NCBI RefSeq assembly: GCF_016863275.1
Contig: NZ_BOOO01000004.1
Location: 124,001-188,000 of the forward strand
DNA from: Planotetraspora mira
Lineage (GTDB): Bacteria > Actinomycetota > Actinomycetes > Streptosporangiales > Streptosporangiaceae
Reading direction: 5' to 3'
DNA: 64,000 nucleotides
A model generated the notes under the pieces. It was not told the DNA's origin. It did not search any database and saw nothing but the letters and a program-made list of their open reading frames with translations. Each line of letters begins with the position of its first letter. Position 1 is the first letter of the stretch. Shown here one piece after another: positions 4,375 to 60,203 of this stretch. The translations under genes were made by a program, and so were the position numbers.

Positions 4375-5546
4375 GCCCGGGAGGGCCGGTCATCTCGCTG
4401 CCGGGGGTGCGAGAGCCGTACGAACTGGGGGAACCCGTCACCTGGACGCGCCCGGGCGGCCCGCCGGCCCGGCGGGTCGCCTACGCGGCGGCGCACGTGG
4501 TCGCGGACGTCCACGGGGGCAACGGCCCCGGCCGGCCGGCCGCGGTCGACTGGGACGCCACGCTGCGTTTCCGGCGGCACCTGTGGGCGTACGGCTTCCG
4601 CGTCGCGGACGCCATGGACACCGCGCAGCGGAACATGGGCCTCGACTGGGCGGCGACGCGCGAGCTGATCGCCCGCAGCGCGGCCGAGGCCCGTTCGCTG
4701 GGCGACCCCGCCGACCTGGTGGCCTGCGGCGCGGGGACCGACCACGCACCGGACGCCGGCTCGCTCGATGAGATCACCGCCGCCTATCTCGAGCAGGTGG
4801 AGACCGTCCGCGCGGCGGGGCCCGGCGTCATCCTGATGGCCAGCCGCCAGCTCGCGCGGGTCGCGCGGGGGCCCGAGGACTATCACACGGTGTACGGCAG
4901 GCTGCTCGGCCAGGCGGACCGGCCGGTGATCCTGCACTGGCTGGGCGAGATGTTCGACCCCCGGCTCGCCGGGTATTGGGGGTCGCCTGATGTGGAGACG
5001 GCCACCGAGTCGTTCCTCGCCCTCATCCGCGAGCACGCCTCCAAGGTGGAGGGCGTCAAGGTGTCGCTGCTGGACGAGGACCACGAGGTGCGCCTGCGCG
5101 CGGCCCTGCCGGAAGGCGTGCGGCTGTACACGGGGGACGACTTCAACTACCCCTCGCTCATCAGGTCGGGGTCGGACGCGCTGCTGGGGATCTTCGACGC
5201 CATCGCGCCGGCGGCCGCGGCCGCGCTGGAGGCGCTGGATCGGGCCGAGTCGGCTGCGGATGAGACCACTCAAGCCCGGAATTTCGGCATTTATGAGGGG
5301 ATATTGGGGCCGACGGTGGCGTTGTCGCGGAAGATCTTCGAGGTGCCGACCTACCACTACAAGACGGGGATCGTCTTCCTCGCCTGGCTGGCGGGGCACC
5401 AGGACGACTTCGTCATGGTGAACGGCGCCCAGACGGCCCGGTCGATCGAACATCTCGCCGAGGTGTTCCGCCTCGCCGACAAGGCCGGCCTGCTCCCCGA
5501 CCCCGAGTTGGCCGCCCACCGAATGACCACCCTCACCCGGGCGTGA
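4371..5546 (+). CDS. DUF993 family protein (aldolase/DapA-like fold)
   Basis: A 391-aa protein of the DUF993 family, which resembles dihydrodipicolinate synthase-type TIM barrels and commonly sits beside Gfo/Idh/MocA dehydrogenases. Visible features are YAAAHVVADVH near the N-terminus, RPVILHWLGEMFDP, and SKVEGVKVSLLDED, where a Lys occupies the position expected for a Schiff base. It starts with GTG at 4371, overlapping the previous stop by 4 nt, so translation is coupled. Its TGA (5544-5546) lies inside the first 19-bp unit of the repeat array that follows. The reaction is unknown. Confidence 0.8.
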   Translation: MSPGGPVISLPGVREPYELGEPVTWTRPGGPPARRVAYAAAHVVADVHGGNGPGRPAAVDWDATLRFRRHLWAYGFRVADAMDTAQRNMGLDWAATRELIARSAAEARSLGDPADLVACGAGTDHAPDAGSLDEITAAYLEQVETVRAAGPGVILMASRQLARVARGPEDYHTVYGRLLGQADRPVILHWLGEMFDPRLAGYWGSPDVETATESFLALIREHASKVEGVKVSLLDEDHEVRLRAALPEGVRLYTGDDFNYPSLIRSGSDALLGIFDAIAPAAAAALEALDRAESAADETTQARNFGIYEGILGPTVALSRKIFEVPTYHYKTGIVFLAWLAGHQDDFVMVNGAQTARSIEHLAEVFRLADKAGLLPDPELAAHRMTTLTRA

Positions 5547-5909
5547 TCATGCACAGGTTCGGGATCATGCCACTCGACCAGGCACTCCCCTGGTGGTGAT
5601 CATGCACAGATTCGTGTGCGGCACGCCTGACCTGCAAAAACACCCGCCGTGATCATGCGCAGATTCGCGCACACCCGACCCGACCTGCGGGAACATCGAC
5701 CGTGATCATGCAATTGGCCTGGGCGTCCATCAGGCCAATTGCATGATCACCACTTGTGTCGGCCCAGTTCAGACGACCTGATCGCGAAGCTGTGCATGAT
5801 CACCGATTGGATACGCCCAGGCCAGGCGGCTTGATCACGAACCTGTGCATGATCACCACAAAGAAAGGGGCTGGTGAGGGGCCATGTTGACGAACCTGTG
5901 CATGATCAC
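5543..5909. repeat. Palindrome-centred 53-bp repeat array 1
   Basis: Three forward copies of GTGATCATGCACAGGTTCG or close variants start at 5543, 5596 and 5649. A central palindrome occupies 5702-5750: GTGATCATGCAATTGGCCTG, nine unpaired bases, then its exact reverse complement. Three inverted copies follow, ending at 5803, 5856 and 5909. Every step is exactly 53 bp and all units are symmetric about 5726. Linkers are 34 bp and partly conserved; the outermost left linker matches the reverse complement of the outermost right linker at about 21 of 34 positions, so the whole element is an imperfect inverted repeat of 367 bp. The first unit includes the DUF993 stop codon. Confidence 0.95.
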
Positions 5910-37453: not shown

Positions 37454-39937
37454 TCACAGGCGCGGGTCGACGGGCTCGGACTCCAGCGCGAGCACGGCGA
37501 ACACCGTCTCGTGCACGCGCCACAGCGGGTCGCCCTCGGCCAGGCGGGTGAGCGCCTCCAGCCCGAGGGCGTGCTCGCGCGACGCCAGCGACCGCTTCCT
37601 GCCGAGGAAGCGCCCCCGCAGGTCGCCGAGCGACTCCGTGTAGTCCGGACCGTAGATGATCCGCAGGTACTCGCGCCCGCGCACCTTGATCCCCGGCTGC
37701 ACCCGGCCGGGCGTGTGCTCGACGGGCTTGACGACCATGCCCTCTCCCCCACCTGCGGTCAGCTCCGACCACCAGGCGACCGCGGCCGCCCGCTCCTCCT
37801 CCGAGTCCAGCGACACGAACACATGCCGGGTCGGCGCGAGGATGCCGGAACTCAGGCGCCCAAGGACGTCGAGGTGCCAGGAGTGTGGTTCGAGCACGGC
37901 CGTCGCCCGGCCCTCGCAGGCGAGGATCTGGAACGGCGCGAGCCGTACGCCGTCGAGCCCGGAAACCGGCCAGCAGTACCGCGCATAGGCGTCGCGGAAC
38001 AGGGCAGCGTTGTCGGCACGGCGTCGGGTGCGGTCCAGTAACCCGCCTACATCCAGGCCGCGCCCGGCCGCCGTCTCCAGGAGCGCCACCGCCTCGGGCA
38101 GGGCGACCCGCGCCGCGGCGCCGACGGAGGCGTACTGGTCGCGGATCAGCCCCTCCGCCTTCGCCGACCAGGGAAGCAGCTCGCAGTCGAGCACCAGCCA
38201 GTCGGTTCCCAGCTCGTCCCAGAGCGGGCTCACCGCCTCGCGGAGCCGGTCGACGAGCTCTCCGGTGAGAGCGTCGAAGAAGGGCCGCCCGGTGCGCGTG
38301 TAGACGCTGCCGGTCGTGCCGTCCGTGACGCCGAACCGTTTGGCCGCCGCCTCGGGAGTCCTGGCCAGTACGGCTATCGCCCGCGAGCCCATGTGCTTCT
38401 CCTCGCACACGACGCGGGACACTCCGGCCCTGGCGTACTCCTCGAACGCCTGGTCCGGGTGCTCGAGGAAGCCGTCGAGCGCCGAGGTCTCCGGCGGGGC
38501 CATGGTCGGCGGAAGGTAGACGAGCCAGCGGGGATCCACGGAGAACCGGCTCATGATCTCCAGCGCCGCCGCCGAGTTCTCCTCCGCGATCTTGACGCGC
38601 CCGCCGTACCTGGTCTCCACGTACCGCGTGCCGGTCACGTCGCCGATGTCGAGGACTCCGGGGTCCCTGGCGTACTGCGACGTGAGCGGCCTGACCGGCT
38701 CGTACCAGACCTTCTCCGCCGGGACCGAGACGATCTGCCGCTCGGGGTAGCGGAGCGCGGTCAGGCTTCCGCCGAACACGGCTCCCGTGTCCAGGCAGAT
38801 GGTGTTGTTGACCCACTCGGGCTCCGTGGTCGGCGTGTGGCCGTAGACGACCATCGCGCGCCCCCGGTACTCGTTCGCCCACGGGTACCGGACCGGCAGG
38901 CCGTACTCGTCGGTCTCGCCCGTGGTGTCGCCGTAGAGCGCGAACGAGCGGACCCGGCCGGACGCGCGCCCGTGGTAGGCCTCCTTGAGCCCGGCGTGCG
39001 CGACGACGAGGGCGCCTCCGTCGAGCCGGTAGTGGCTGATGAGGCCGTCCATGAACGTCTTCGCGGCGTCCCGGAAGTCCTCGGGCTCGGCGGCGAGCTG
39101 CTCCAGCGACTGCTCCAGGCCGTGGGCGACCCGGACCTTGCGCCCGTTGAGCGCGCGGACGAGTTTCTGCTCGTGGTTGCCGGAGACGCACAGCGCCGTC
39201 CCCGCCTCGACCATACCCATGACCAGGCGCAGCACGCCCGGGGTGTCGGGGCCGCGGTCGACCAGGTCGCCGACGAACACGGCCGTCCGTCCTTCGGGGT
39301 GGACGGCGCCCGTGGGCGTCACCGTCCAGCCGAGGGTCCGCAGCAGGGTCTCCAGCTCGGAACGGCAGCCGTGGACGTCGCCGATGATGTCGAAGGGACC
39401 GGTGAGCTCGGTCCGGTCCGACCACGCCCTCTCGTAGGCGATGACGGCGTCGTCGATCTCGTCGCCGCGCAGCACGTGAACCCGGCGGAAGCCGTCCCTG
39501 TTGATCTTGCCGAGCGAACGGCGCAGGTCCTTCTTCTGCCGGGTGACGACGTGCGGGCCGAACGCACGGTCGGCCCTGGTGGCGTTGCGGGCGATCGCCA
39601 CGTCCTCAGGGACGTCGAGCACGATCGCGTCGACCAGCACGTCATGGCTCTTGGCCAGCTCGATGAGCTGCTTGCGGGCCTCCCACTGGACGTTGGTGGC
39701 GTCGACGACCGTCAGCAGGCCACGCCTCAGCCGGGTGCCGACGATGTAGTGGAGGACGTCGAAGGCGTCGGGCGTGGCCGACTGGTCGTTCTCGTCGTCG
39801 GAGACCAGGCCACGGCAGTAGTCCGAGGAGATGACCTGAGTGGGCGCGAAATGCCGGGCGGCGAATGTCGACTTCCCGCTGCCCGAGATCCCGACGAGCA
39901 CCACCAGTGCCATCCGCGGAACACCGATCTCAATCAC
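37454..39937 (-). CDS. pnkP: Polynucleotide kinase-phosphatase-ligase, RNA repair (Pnkp)
   Basis: An 827-aa three-domain RNA end-healing and sealing enzyme. The kinase P-loop is VGISGSGKST (about residues 13-22). The metallophosphoesterase has FDIIGDVHGC (about 188), FVGDLVDRGPDT and SGNHEQKLV. The C-terminal ligase/adenylyltransferase has CEEKHMGSRAI, with the lysine that takes AMP near residue 513. GTG at 39937 with GGGAGG is preferred over 39952. Known Pnkp works with Hen1 in a heterotetramer that repairs ribotoxin-cleaved tRNA, and hen1 is the next gene upstream. Confidence 0.95.
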   Translation of the reverse strand: MIEIGVPRMALVVLVGISGSGKSTFAARHFAPTQVISSDYCRGLVSDDENDQSATPDAFDVLHYIVGTRLRRGLLTVVDATNVQWEARKQLIELAKSHDVLVDAIVLDVPEDVAIARNATRADRAFGPHVVTRQKKDLRRSLGKINRDGFRRVHVLRGDEIDDAVIAYERAWSDRTELTGPFDIIGDVHGCRSELETLLRTLGWTVTPTGAVHPEGRTAVFVGDLVDRGPDTPGVLRLVMGMVEAGTALCVSGNHEQKLVRALNGRKVRVAHGLEQSLEQLAAEPEDFRDAAKTFMDGLISHYRLDGGALVVAHAGLKEAYHGRASGRVRSFALYGDTTGETDEYGLPVRYPWANEYRGRAMVVYGHTPTTEPEWVNNTICLDTGAVFGGSLTALRYPERQIVSVPAEKVWYEPVRPLTSQYARDPGVLDIGDVTGTRYVETRYGGRVKIAEENSAAALEIMSRFSVDPRWLVYLPPTMAPPETSALDGFLEHPDQAFEEYARAGVSRVVCEEKHMGSRAIAVLARTPEAAAKRFGVTDGTTGSVYTRTGRPFFDALTGELVDRLREAVSPLWDELGTDWLVLDCELLPWSAKAEGLIRDQYASVGAAARVALPEAVALLETAAGRGLDVGGLLDRTRRRADNAALFRDAYARYCWPVSGLDGVRLAPFQILACEGRATAVLEPHSWHLDVLGRLSSGILAPTRHVFVSLDSEEERAAAVAWWSELTAGGGEGMVVKPVEHTPGRVQPGIKVRGREYLRIIYGPDYTESLGDLRGRFLGRKRSLASREHALGLEALTRLAEGDPLWRVHETVFAVLALESEPVDPRL

Positions 39938-39964
39938 GACAACCCCTCCCACAACCCATTAGTG

Positions 39965-40370
39965 GTGATCATGCACACCTTCGCCAAATCCCCCACCCAC
40001 CAGCCCCAACCTCCCCCGTGATCATGCACACCTTCGTGATCACGCCGTCCCACGTGCGCAAACGCTCCCCGTGATCATGCACAGGTTCGGCGGCACCCGG
40101 CCTGACCAGCCCAAACCCCCGTCGTGATCATGCACGGATTCGTTCTCGCGCGGTCCCACCTGGCCGAACTCATTTCGTGATCATGCACGCACCCCATCGG
40201 TGCCAGATCACGAAGGACATCTCCGCAGCCAGAAGCGGGTGCGCACGAATCCGCGCATGATCACGACCCGCGTCCGCGCTGGTCAGGGGGTGATTCCACA
40301 AACCCGTGCATGATCACCACCCATGAAGGGGCAGGTCGTCGGCATGATCACCGAACCTGTGCATGATCAC
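39965..40370. repeat. Palindrome-centred 53-bp repeat array 2, inside the hen1-pnkP operon
   Basis: Four forward 19-bp units start at 39965, 40018, 40071 and 40124. The central element 40177-40211 (35 nt) has GTGATC...GCACC on the left and GGTGCCAGATCAC on the right, a less perfect hairpin than in arrays 1 and 3. Three inverted units end at 40264, 40317 and 40370. All steps are 53 bp and paired units share midpoint 40194; the outermost left unit has no partner because its place lies within hen1. The last unit codes for the final residues of Hen1 (DHAQVR). Confidence 0.95.
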
Positions 40371-41856
40371 GGCGAAAGGGGTTGGGGGGTTGGGTGGGGA
40401 GGTGGAATATGGCCATCTGGGTGGGCGGGCCCACTTCTGGGTCGTCCTCCCCCACTGGCCTGAAGGTCACCTCGTACCCGTACGCCTCGCAGACCCCCGC
40501 CGCCCACGTGGTGAACTCGGCCCTGGTCCACTCGAACCGGTGGTCCGGATGACGCCTGTGCGAGGGCCCGCCATCCGTACCCGCCAGGCCTTCATATCGA
40601 ACGTTGTACTCCACGTTGGGCGTGGTCACGACGACGTGGGGCGGCCTGGCCACCCCGAAGACCACCCGCTCCAGAGCGGGAAGCCGCGGCGGATCGACGT
40701 GCTCGACGACCTCCATGAGAACGGCCGCGTCATGTCCGGCGAACCGGGCGTCCGTGTACGTCAGCGACCCCTGGAACAGCTCCAGCCGCGCCCGCTTGGC
40801 GTCCGGCATGCGCTCCAGCCTGAGCTTCCGCGCGGCTATGGCGAGCGCCCGCGCCGACACGTCCACTCCTGTGACCTTGGCGAACGACGGCCGGCCCAGC
40901 AGCGCCGACACCAGTTGCCCCGGACCACAGCCGAGGTCGATCACGGAGCGGGCGCCGATCTCCTCCAGCACCGACACGACCGCGTCACGCCGAATGGTGT
41001 TCAGTGGTGTACGCGGCTCGGGGACCGGAAGCGTCTCAGCCACACCATCGGCGTCGTCGACGGCCGGCGCCTCCGTGACCTCCTCCTCGGAGGGCGGCTC
41101 CAGCGACTCCTCGACGTCGTCGCCGATCTCGGCCAAGCGGGCGAAAGCCGTACGGGCCAGGGCCCAGCGGCGGCCGAGGTAACGGCGCGTGATCAGCACG
41201 CGCTCCGGATGGGCGCCCAGCCAGCCCCCACCGGCCCGGATGAGCTTGTCCACCTCGTCGCCCGCGATCCAGTAGTGCTTGGCGTCGTCCAGCACAGGAA
41301 GCAGCACGTAGAGGTGGTTGAGCGCGTCGGCCAGGCGAACCTCGCCGCGCAGCGTCAGCCGGACATAGCGCGAGTCGCCCCATTCCGGGAAGTTCTCATC
41401 GAGCGGCACGGCCGTCGCGTCCACCTGCCAGCCGAGGGGCTCGAACAGCCTGCGCGCGAGATCGGCGCCGCCCCTGCAGGGCAGCGCGGGCAGGCCGAGT
41501 TCCAGCGGGATCGGCCGGTCGGCGAGCTCCTGCCGGGAGGCGCACCGCCCGGTCCTCGCCGTACGGAACACGTCGGCGAGGGCGACCGCGAGCAGCGACG
41601 ACGCGGCGTACGGCCGGTCGTTGACGTACTGCCCGAGCGAGAAGTCGGGCGACGACTTCCCCCGGGATCGGACGAGCCGGATCGGATCGACCTCCAGCAG
41701 CAGCGCGGCCGTGCACCGGTGCTCGCTCGCCTCGGGATACAGGACGCGGGCCGTGCCGAACGACTGGCCGAACTCCTGCACGCGGTCTGGATGCTTGTGC
41801 AGGAGGAAGCCGAGGTCCGTGGCCGGCGACAGGGTCGTCGAGATGGTGAGGAGCAC
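40348..41856 (-). CDS. hen1: 3'-terminal RNA ribose 2'-O-methyltransferase Hen1
   Basis: Adds a 2'-O-methyl group at the cut 3' end before Pnkp seals the RNA, making the repaired site resistant to recutting; 502 aa. The N-terminal half is the bacterial Hen1 activator/ligase-partner domain (TISTTLSPATDLGFLLHKHP; SLGQYVNDRPYAASSLLAVA). The methyltransferase begins SVIDLGCGPGQLVSALLG (about 302); metal ligands are in LMEVVEHVDPPRL (E-x-x-E-H, about 380) followed by the HRRHPDHRFEW segment. The last residues and the stop come from repeat array 2. pnkP lies 411 bp downstream. Confidence 0.95.
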   Translation of the reverse strand: MLLTISTTLSPATDLGFLLHKHPDRVQEFGQSFGTARVLYPEASEHRCTAALLLEVDPIRLVRSRGKSSPDFSLGQYVNDRPYAASSLLAVALADVFRTARTGRCASRQELADRPIPLELGLPALPCRGGADLARRLFEPLGWQVDATAVPLDENFPEWGDSRYVRLTLRGEVRLADALNHLYVLLPVLDDAKHYWIAGDEVDKLIRAGGGWLGAHPERVLITRRYLGRRWALARTAFARLAEIGDDVEESLEPPSEEEVTEAPAVDDADGVAETLPVPEPRTPLNTIRRDAVVSVLEEIGARSVIDLGCGPGQLVSALLGRPSFAKVTGVDVSARALAIAARKLRLERMPDAKRARLELFQGSLTYTDARFAGHDAAVLMEVVEHVDPPRLPALERVVFGVARPPHVVVTTPNVEYNVRYEGLAGTDGGPSHRRHPDHRFEWTRAEFTTWAAGVCEAYGYEVTFRPVGEDDPEVGPPTQMAIFHLPTQPPNPFRRDHAQVR

Positions 41857-52688: not shown

Positions 52689-53147
52689 GTGATCATGCAC
52701 ACCTTCGTGAAGTGATGCCCCGACCAGCCCCAACCCCCGGCGTGATCATGCACAGGTTCGTGGACGTATGGCTTGACCTGCCACTTCACCGGGCGTGATC
52801 ATGCACAGGTTCGGAAAAGCGCACCGCGACCTGGCCTTTTCCGCTTCGTGATCATGCGCAGGTTCGCGGAAGTGTGCCCTGACGTGCATAAACACCTTCT
52901 GTGATCTGGCAATGACAGCGGGATTGCCAGATCACGGCGCAGCCCGCACCAGCTCAGACGGCGTATTCGCGAATCTATGCATGATCACGCTCGGCTTCTG
53001 CGCAGGTCGGAGGGTACGTTTCCGAACCTGTGCATGATCACGACCGGTGACGACGCAGGTCAGAGCGCACATCCCCGAACCTGTGCATGATCACGGCCAA
53101 GGAAGGGGCTGGTCCGCAGGGAGATCTACGAATGTGTGCATGATCAC
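52689..53147. repeat. Palindrome-centred 53-bp repeat array 3 (complete form)
   Basis: The most complete array. Four forward 19-bp units start at 52689, 52742, 52795 and 52848. The central palindrome 52901-52935 is GTGATCTGGCAAT, nine bases, then the exact reverse complement. Four inverted units end at 52988, 53041, 53094 and 53147. Every step is 53 bp and the whole is symmetric about 52918. It fills the divergent gap between the AI-2E gene (-) and the DUF4235 gene (+), so promoters for both must lie in or beside it. 52580-52688 shows no gene. Confidence 0.96.
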
Positions 53148-59845: not shown

Positions 59846-60203
59846 GTGATCATGCACACCTTCGCGATCATCCACGGTGACCTGCCCCCTCACATTTGGT
59901 GATCATGCGCAGATTCGAGATCATGCCCCGCCACCTGCGCGAACTCCTCGCATGATCATGCAGTCCGGATATTTCCGGACTGCATGGTCACGAACGACAT
60001 CCTCCCAGACCAGCGTCCGCCGGCCCGAGGACGTGCATGATCACGGTCTGCGACGCCGCAGGTCACGACACTGATCCCCGAACCCGTGCATGATCACGGA
60101 CAGCATCGGTGCAGGTCACCGGGGATACGGCCGAACGTGTGCATGATCACGCGCGGAGGGGCGGGAGGTCAGGACAGATGAACACGAACCTGTGCATGAT
60201 CAC
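59846..60203. repeat. Palindrome-centred 53-bp repeat array 4
   Basis: Two forward 19-bp units start at 59846 and 59899. The central palindrome 59952-59991 is ATGATCATGCAGTCCGG, ATATTT, CCGGACTGCATGGTCAC, with 17-bp arms and two mismatches. Four inverted units end at 60045 (degenerate), 60097, 60150 and 60203. Steps are 53 bp except a compensating 54/52 pair; 59846 and 60097 are symmetric about the palindrome's midpoint. The two outer right units have no left partners because their places fall inside the inositol monophosphatase gene. Confidence 0.94.

Follow-up and report, generated by a model that had tools for sequence, protein, structure and literature searches.

An intergenic stretch of a Planotetraspora chromosome carries a 19-bp motif at regular steps, pointing inward from both sides to a central palindrome. 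What kind of element is this array, and what may it be for? The window, namely the whole 64-kb stretch of DNA that was analyzed, is part of contig C4 of G000, a 9.03-Mb Planotetraspora genome. The original prediction described four such arrays with 27 flanking units. A motif search found 26 copies in the window at three or fewer mismatches, against 0.02 expected. These copies form four arrays with 53-bp steps, in which plus-strand units lie on the left, minus-strand units on the right and an inverted element in the center; the 27th unit is a degenerate copy. The predicted inward arrays were borne out by the motif count and the layout, and their extent is larger than was described.

Arrays in the window and anatomy of the unit

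The arrays were delimited by the motif search and the unit and linker layout, and their central elements were compared with each other. The type array A3 (52689..53147) has four plus units, a central palindrome (GTGATCTGGCAATGACAGCGGGATTGCCAGATCAC, 52901..52935) and four minus units with exact 53-bp steps on each side, which confirms its predicted composition. An example unit on the plus strand (52742..52794) comprises Box 1, the 19-bp motif (52742-52760), and a 34-bp linker with Box 2 (TTGACCTGCC). Array A1 (5543..5909) has three plus and three minus units around a palindrome with the first letters GTGATCATGCAATTGGCCT (5702..5750, stem of approximately 20 bp). Array A2 (39965..40370), for which gene calls and Pfam were also used, has four plus units, the central element GTGATCATGCACGCACCCCATCGGTGCCAGATCAC (40177..40211) and three minus units. 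Array A4 (59846..60203) has two plus units, a central palindrome starting with ATGATC (59952..59991), three minus units and the degenerate unit (60026-60044, minus strand), which was recognized from the layout.

The unit was characterized in 160 copies picked by their core bases; the next unit along, which was not picked, has the core bases at 89-97%. Positions 1-10 (GTGATCATGC) are near-invariant. The unit end GTGATC[A/T]TGC is constant and is followed by 4-5 bases that form a lineage dialect. Variation at positions 11-15 is limited, positions 16-19 (TTCG) are strongly conserved, and 87% of the units have C at position 53. A second box, TGACCTGC, occupies positions 33-40, where information peaks; the predicted linker box CCTGACCTGCC is therefore real. 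The weaker GATCATGCC described after the unit is also real. It is a secondary core at an offset of approximately +18, which accounts for recurrent 18/35 steps. Mutual information exceeded the shuffle maximum mainly between positions two or fewer apart, with 12-33 and 33-38 borderline; therefore, there is no clear RNA stem within the unit. A hairpin within the unit at the RNA level (pairing of GCRCAGGT with ACCTGYGC) was rejected because no covariation was seen.

In the central element, two inner half-units face each other, and this explains the inversion of its outer 10-12 bp. Only some arrays have a long stem of complementary arms at the center, and many central elements pair over just 10-12 bp. 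In the window, the stems of A1 and A4 are approximately 18-20 bp, that of A3 is 13 bp, and A2 has a short one only. Arm complementarity in 52 loosely chosen elements, among which non-central pairs were a contaminant, showed no excess (3.29 versus 3.25 of 10). The facing distance at the center is often 35 bp and varies widely, unlike the same-strand step.

Number, orientation and spacing in the genome

The pattern GTGATCATGCRCNNNTTCG has 618 matches across the G000 genome, and the reversed control has none. In an 846-kb sample of this genome, the count was 29 arrays and 187 units; two or more units, including one good unit, were required to call an array, isolated weak matches were dropped, and some inner half-units were counted. 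Units point strictly inward in 28 of the 29 arrays, and 131/139 same-strand steps measure exactly 53 bp. Every one of the 128 exact copies in the sample belongs to an array (0/128 outside). Since these 128 of the 618 exact matches fall in a sample holding 29 arrays, the whole genome should contain approximately 140 arrays. The palindrome-centered, two-sided plan of the original prediction holds in the window. However, it is not general: 17/29 arrays in the sample are two-sided and 12/29 one-sided, with two to six units per occupied side, and a long central palindrome is not the rule. Arrays are spread slightly more evenly than they would be if placed at random in intergenic DNA (CV 0.69 versus 0.93), a weak effect (p = 0.04). 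When a looser core was used, 130 of 147 Planotetraspora arrays were inward; the other 17 were mixed, as scored by pattern alone.

Perfect cores on the same strand followed each other at 40-66 bp in 547 cases, and in 514 of these the step was exactly 53 bp. In non-array intergenic DNA, comparisons of G000 with G003, G004 and G001 gave 0.144, 0.121 and 0.168 indels per substitution, respectively. Neighboring units on one side of an array share approximately 49% linker identity (G000, innermost units left out). By our own arithmetic, at least two length changes would be expected in each unconstrained linker, whereas few were observed. That spacing is kept more strictly than the local indel rate would allow is our strongest indication of function, although tandem duplication gives equal lengths from the outset. 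The original prediction also placed all motifs on one face of the helix. This fits the 53-bp step (5.05 turns) and a genus with 41-bp steps (3.9 turns), but not the non-modal steps, in which no 10.5-bp phase was found (R = 0.06, n = 117).

Gene context

Genes were called with a purpose-made codon-usage caller instead of being taken from annotation. Of the occupied sides in G000, 29 face gene ends and 17 face gene starts (p = 0.10); arrays are over-represented in convergent gaps and under-represented in divergent ones (p of approximately 0.03-0.04). The bias was clearer in 74 arrays from named Planotetraspora loci, with 25/74 in convergent gaps (p = 5e-6), depletion of divergent gaps (p = 7e-4) and 73 gene-end to 45 gene-start sides. 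A second set, which overlaps the 74-array set in species, had 14/29 arrays in convergent gaps (p = 5e-5). The bias also appears in genus g86 (12 arrays) and is weak or absent in g80 and g72. The window itself runs counter to this trend, with three gene-end and five gene-start sides. On 17 of the 29 gene-end sides in G000, the first unit lies 11-28 bp beyond the stop codon, and on six of the 29 the GTGA of the unit provides the stop codon. Sense orientation is not required, since 17 of the 46 occupied sides are at gene starts.

The idea that arrays mark divergent promoters, which came from raw ORFs, was not supported by the retrained gene caller. Genes enclosed between arrays were considered as cargo; the examples inspected, whose identities we assumed by our own recognition, look ordinary. 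In the window, A2 lies between a hen1-like gene (40348-41856, minus strand, Pfam Hen1_L) and a pnkp-like gene (37454-39937, minus strand, Pfam PNKP_ligase), two RNA-repair genes on the same strand (37454-41856). The hen1 and pnkp genes usually form one operon, and A2 appears to divide it.

Stability of loci and dialects in related genomes

The genomes G000 to G004 are all Planotetraspora, with G003 matching P. kaengkrachanensis and G004 P. silvatica. When array positions were compared between species, units were found at the corresponding position in G003 for 12 of the 13 arrays on contig C1 of G000; only G004 shares the remaining one. G002 has 0 to 4 units at the ten corresponding places that could be located, indicating that arrays can shrink. 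At G000:C1:60118-60491, G000 and G004 carry an array; in G003 and G002 this place is taken by more than 800 bp of other DNA, and the end of the gene differs. No clean empty site was found for this locus in the species comparison, and arrays may sit at local rearrangements.

The G000 form of the motif was present in 5 of the 60 genomes searched (G000 included), all Planotetraspora, and a scan of named contigs returned Planotetraspora species only among the matches listed. When positions 11-15 were freed, G000, G001, G002, G003 and G004 had 658, 713, 178, 535 and 646 copies, of which 618, 10, 155, 498 and 623, respectively, carry [A/G]C at positions 11-12. With only 10 of 713 such copies, G001 has a different spelling, which is mostly GTGATCATGCAGAAGTTCG in the units inspected.

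At a few orthologous units, the spelling was changed in place. Three collinear orthologous units keep their linkers (30, 28 and 23 of 34 bases), and their dialect becomes AGAAG or AGATG in G001; a fourth switched unit sits at the threshold (22/34). Other pairs in the list of switches (coding matches, central elements and non-collinear pairs) were left out. In a looser alignment of 25 units, many of which are possibly not one-to-one orthologs, the core changed at 11%, position 12 changed from C to G in 19 units and position 14 became A in 16.

One array has a counterpart at the corresponding position in G085, a member of genus g80, with both flanking proteins 88-90% identical. This result concerns a single locus; tested in general, such sharing did not reach significance (p = 0.056). 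In the last full unit of the shared locus, the linker end CTGGGAAAACTGTATTG is alike in G085 and G001, while G085 and G000 have the dialect ACAGG and G001 has AGATG. Since G085 belongs to another genus and has ACAGG at this locus, the comparison suggests that the G001 dialect is the derived state.

In a dialect-blind search for two tandem cores, 41 of 297 family genomes had a match. At least ten matches were found in 13 genomes from five genera (g1, g55, g72, g80 and g86), four to six in G076, G115 and G222, and one or two in the rest. The search for the unit among related Streptosporangiales thus yielded inward arrays in Planotetraspora and in the three further genera inspected, with g55 represented by its count alone: in fetched stretches, strictly inward arrays were 12/13 in g80, 10/12 in g86 and 4/6 in g72. 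In these stretches, g80 and g86 mostly have 53-bp steps with a tolerance of approximately one base. Genus g72 has 41-bp steps, and its Box 2 is reversed (GCAGGTC) relative to the 53-bp form (e.g., loci L359-L362 of G077). Arrays are present in 5 of 15 sampled g86 genomes. GTGATCATGC and GTGATCTTGC are mixed inside the arrays of this genus; a uniform dialect is therefore not universal.

Across Actinomycetes, single palindromes with the same ends have a patchy distribution. Such palindromes, with genome-specific arms, were found in 22 of the 394 genomes from this class, and 13 of the 22 have two or more; G388 has 46 copies and its genus-mate G344 none. Some distant carriers have short tandem rows with steps of 32-57 bp. 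At a few loci, genus g71 has head-to-head and alternating copies (alternating at L226) and g69 has single palindromes of approximately 39 bp.

RNA folding and symmetry of the arrays

A transcript of A3 would fold extremely well, with -281 kcal/mol compared with -172 +/- 6.8 in shuffled sequences (z = -16), which is in keeping with an inverted array. Mirror units were more alike than in shuffled order in 73 pooled arrays (p < 0.0005); the mirror-linker signal was present in G000 taken by itself (p < 0.0005) and in named loci (p = 0.01), and was not significant in that register in smaller sets. Much of the initial signal came from the innermost half-units and array-level similarity, and a smaller residue remains. 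The native unit order folded better than permuted orders in 21 of 26 arrays (p = 1.2e-4); these were the first 26 that qualified, and one repeats a locus. Compensatory double changes in orthologous arrays were not in excess (22/177 mirror versus 64/641 control). We read the mirror symmetry as a residue of array growth or of rank-specific units, and not as proof of a selected hairpin. The long hairpin RNA of the original prediction is physically possible, and the unit order is partly mirror-symmetric, but selection for pairing found no counterpart in the compensatory changes.

A predicted protein-read platform and its alternatives

We tentatively favor the reading that the arrays act at the level of DNA, as platforms to which a putative sequence-specific protein binds, and regard this as close to an even question. 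It starts from the observed anatomy, orientation, spacing, conserved loci, genome-wide dialects, in-place switch of a few units and indel-resistant spacing. The conserved core, the dialects rewritten in place, spacing kept while linkers drift, indifference to sense and the lack of pairing within the unit all point to a DNA-binding reader. The binding platform was one of the options in the original prediction and is favored on these grounds; the overall interpretation is partly supported. In the unit, Box 1 (GTGATC[A/T]TGC, the dialect bases and TTCG) and Box 2 would be the two contact sites. Their centers are approximately 26.5 bp apart, and we therefore propose that the putative reader would load in regular steps, as an evenly spaced directional row running from each flank to the center, where the half-units meet. 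The chromosome would be marked by approximately 140 platforms, most of them beside gene ends in convergent or tandem gaps and few in divergent promoter gaps. We infer protein reading, cooperative binding and a possible role in chromosome organization or in the insulation of transcription at gene ends.

Several points qualify this proposal. The in-place switch concerns three or four units, tandem duplication alone gives equal steps at birth, and short-tract gene conversion could homogenize the 19-mers without a reader. The unphased non-modal steps, the 32-57 bp steps in distant relatives, the mixing in g86, the shrinkage in G002 and the REP-like gene context also need to be weighed. A wider claim is that these chromosome-wide, directional, stepped platforms and their putative reader are gained and lost between actinobacterial genera and co-evolve, with the sites being rewritten in place. 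We consider this possible, although we lean against it. If true, it would represent a new kind of bacterial chromosome-organizing or insulating code, and, if the reader exists, a chromosome-scale protein-DNA system would be added to this group of soil actinobacteria. Bacterial extragenic repeats have mostly been ascribed to a transposase or left without explanation. The fixed geometry in several genera, together with lineage-specific letters, makes a trans-acting reader directly testable, and comparing close relatives that have arrays with those that lack them should lead to the gene of such a reader.

The main alternative is a selfish, formerly mobile repeat of the REP or MITE type with later fixation, which we regard as unlikely but which, as an account of how the element arose, could be true alongside the platform. 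In this view, a palindrome with conserved ends would have been spread by a putative transposase, settled at the least harmful places (gene ends and convergent gaps) and been amplified in tandem in some genera, and the dialect would be the homogenized sequence of the active population of each lineage. The patchy palindromes (22/394 genomes, 46 copies in G388 against none in G344) are consistent with this, as is the locus with an array in G000 and G004, none in G003 and G002 and an altered adjoining gene end. The gene context is REP-like according to passages of PMC3733652; REP repeats of other phyla share it, and it therefore cannot separate the two explanations. However, 12 of 13 loci are stable between G000 and G003, one locus is common to another genus, and the dialect switched in place with the linkers retained. 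Among 25 chosen genomes, the Y1 transposase (PF01797) was found in 3/17 carriers (G001, G114 and G232) and in 2/8 others, and the search found none in G000, G002, G003, G004, G388, G447, G535 and G329. BLAST gave no significant match in phages or plasmids. The small mobile palindromic elements of the original prediction are weakened by the same stability, transposase and BLAST results.

The arrays could also be bidirectional 3'-end RNA elements, the units and central hairpin of which fold in the transcript and terminate or protect the flanking mRNAs. The fold of A3, the better folding of native order in 21/26 arrays, the similarity of mirror linkers, the enrichment in convergent and depletion in divergent gaps and the first unit at 11-28 bp past the stop codon on 17/29 sides agree with this. 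Nevertheless, 12 of the 29 arrays are one-sided and hence have no hairpin partner, many centers pair over 10-12 bp only, 17/46 sides are at gene starts, compensatory changes are not in excess, and A2 lies between the same-strand hen1 and pnkp genes; we consider this explanation improbable. A role as DNA uptake signals (DUS/USS-like), with species dialects recognized by a competence receptor, appears very improbable. Inverted pairs of units at gene ends resemble DUS terminators, but uptake signals are not known to form stepped directional arrays. The arrays share with DUS and USS a short core with species dialects, similar to DUS dialects in the portions of PMC3630211 that describe them, as well as many copies and inverted pairs near gene ends. 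However, uptake sequences also occur within genes, as stated in part of PMC2346458, whereas in the 846-kb sample the copies are intergenic and at a fixed step, with 0/128 exact copies outside arrays. Protein-read platforms remain our preferred explanation.

Comparison with known repeats

The arrays resemble mycobacterial MIRU in description, namely intergenic tandem units of actinobacteria with a 53-bp form and stop-codon overlap; MIRU are not known to have units inverted on two sides of a central element, or to switch dialect. Pneumococcal BOX elements are modular intergenic repeats in which a variable number of repeat modules lies between two unlike ends. By this description, they differ from the arrays, in which like units flank the center in inverted orientation.

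CRISPR-like spacers were rejected because the linkers carry a consensus; as originally stated, the arrays are unlike CRISPR, since orientation inverts at the center and the linkers share Box 2. Rfam covariance models gave no match at the gathering score in the window, and no known RNA family was assigned. The statement that the arrays are unlike REP and BIME is correct for sequence, orientation and enzyme, but not for gene context. REP, BIME and REPIN are extragenic inverted pairs, lineage-specific and near 3' ends or convergent genes, and BIME-2 binds gyrase, according to sections of PMC2817692, PMC3733652 and PMC3116915. The arrays are similar in having hundreds of extragenic inverted, lineage-specific copies at gene ends and in convergent or tandem gaps. 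However, REP carry an unpaired GTAG or CGTC tag at one end of the hairpin (described in part of PMC3733652), whereas the units start with GTGATC and are themselves no hairpin. The arrays point inward (28/29 in G000) rather than alternate as in BIME, although g71 does alternate (L226); they hold a fixed 53-bp step over variable linkers; and a cognate RAYT is lacking, since Y1 is absent from 14 of 17 carriers. RAYT/REPIN were thus rejected, PF01797 being unassociated with the repeats over the 25 chosen genomes. Y1 (IS200-type) transposase fragments occur at G001:C12:169185, C42:67776 and C55:87578, in G001 only among the five Planotetraspora searched. A phage or plasmid origin was rejected on the BLAST result; a pattern scan of viral contigs gave 41 with one palindrome each, a raw pattern count without a chance baseline.

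The original prediction did not recognize the arrays as described. In agreement with this, no description was found in open-licence PubMed Central, judged mainly by title; literal motif strings returned no bacterial repeat study by title among the matches listed.

Related elements outside the arrays

At the edge of an array in G003 (G003:C1:28555-28640, L058), we observed a 30-bp mini-tandem (GTGATCATGC.CAGGTTCGACCCCCTTGGC), as if array edges seed other periods. Related palindromes starting with GTGATCTTGCTGTTTTCCCC or GTGATCTTGCTCTTGGTGGC were found at L264 and L265 (G068) and at L266 and L267 (G232), in genera g63/g67. They are alike within a genome, and tandem arrays were not seen at L264-L267. 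In g71, palindromes at L216 (G115, 1755-2564) lie within a reading frame, which we take to resemble a urease-accessory protein.
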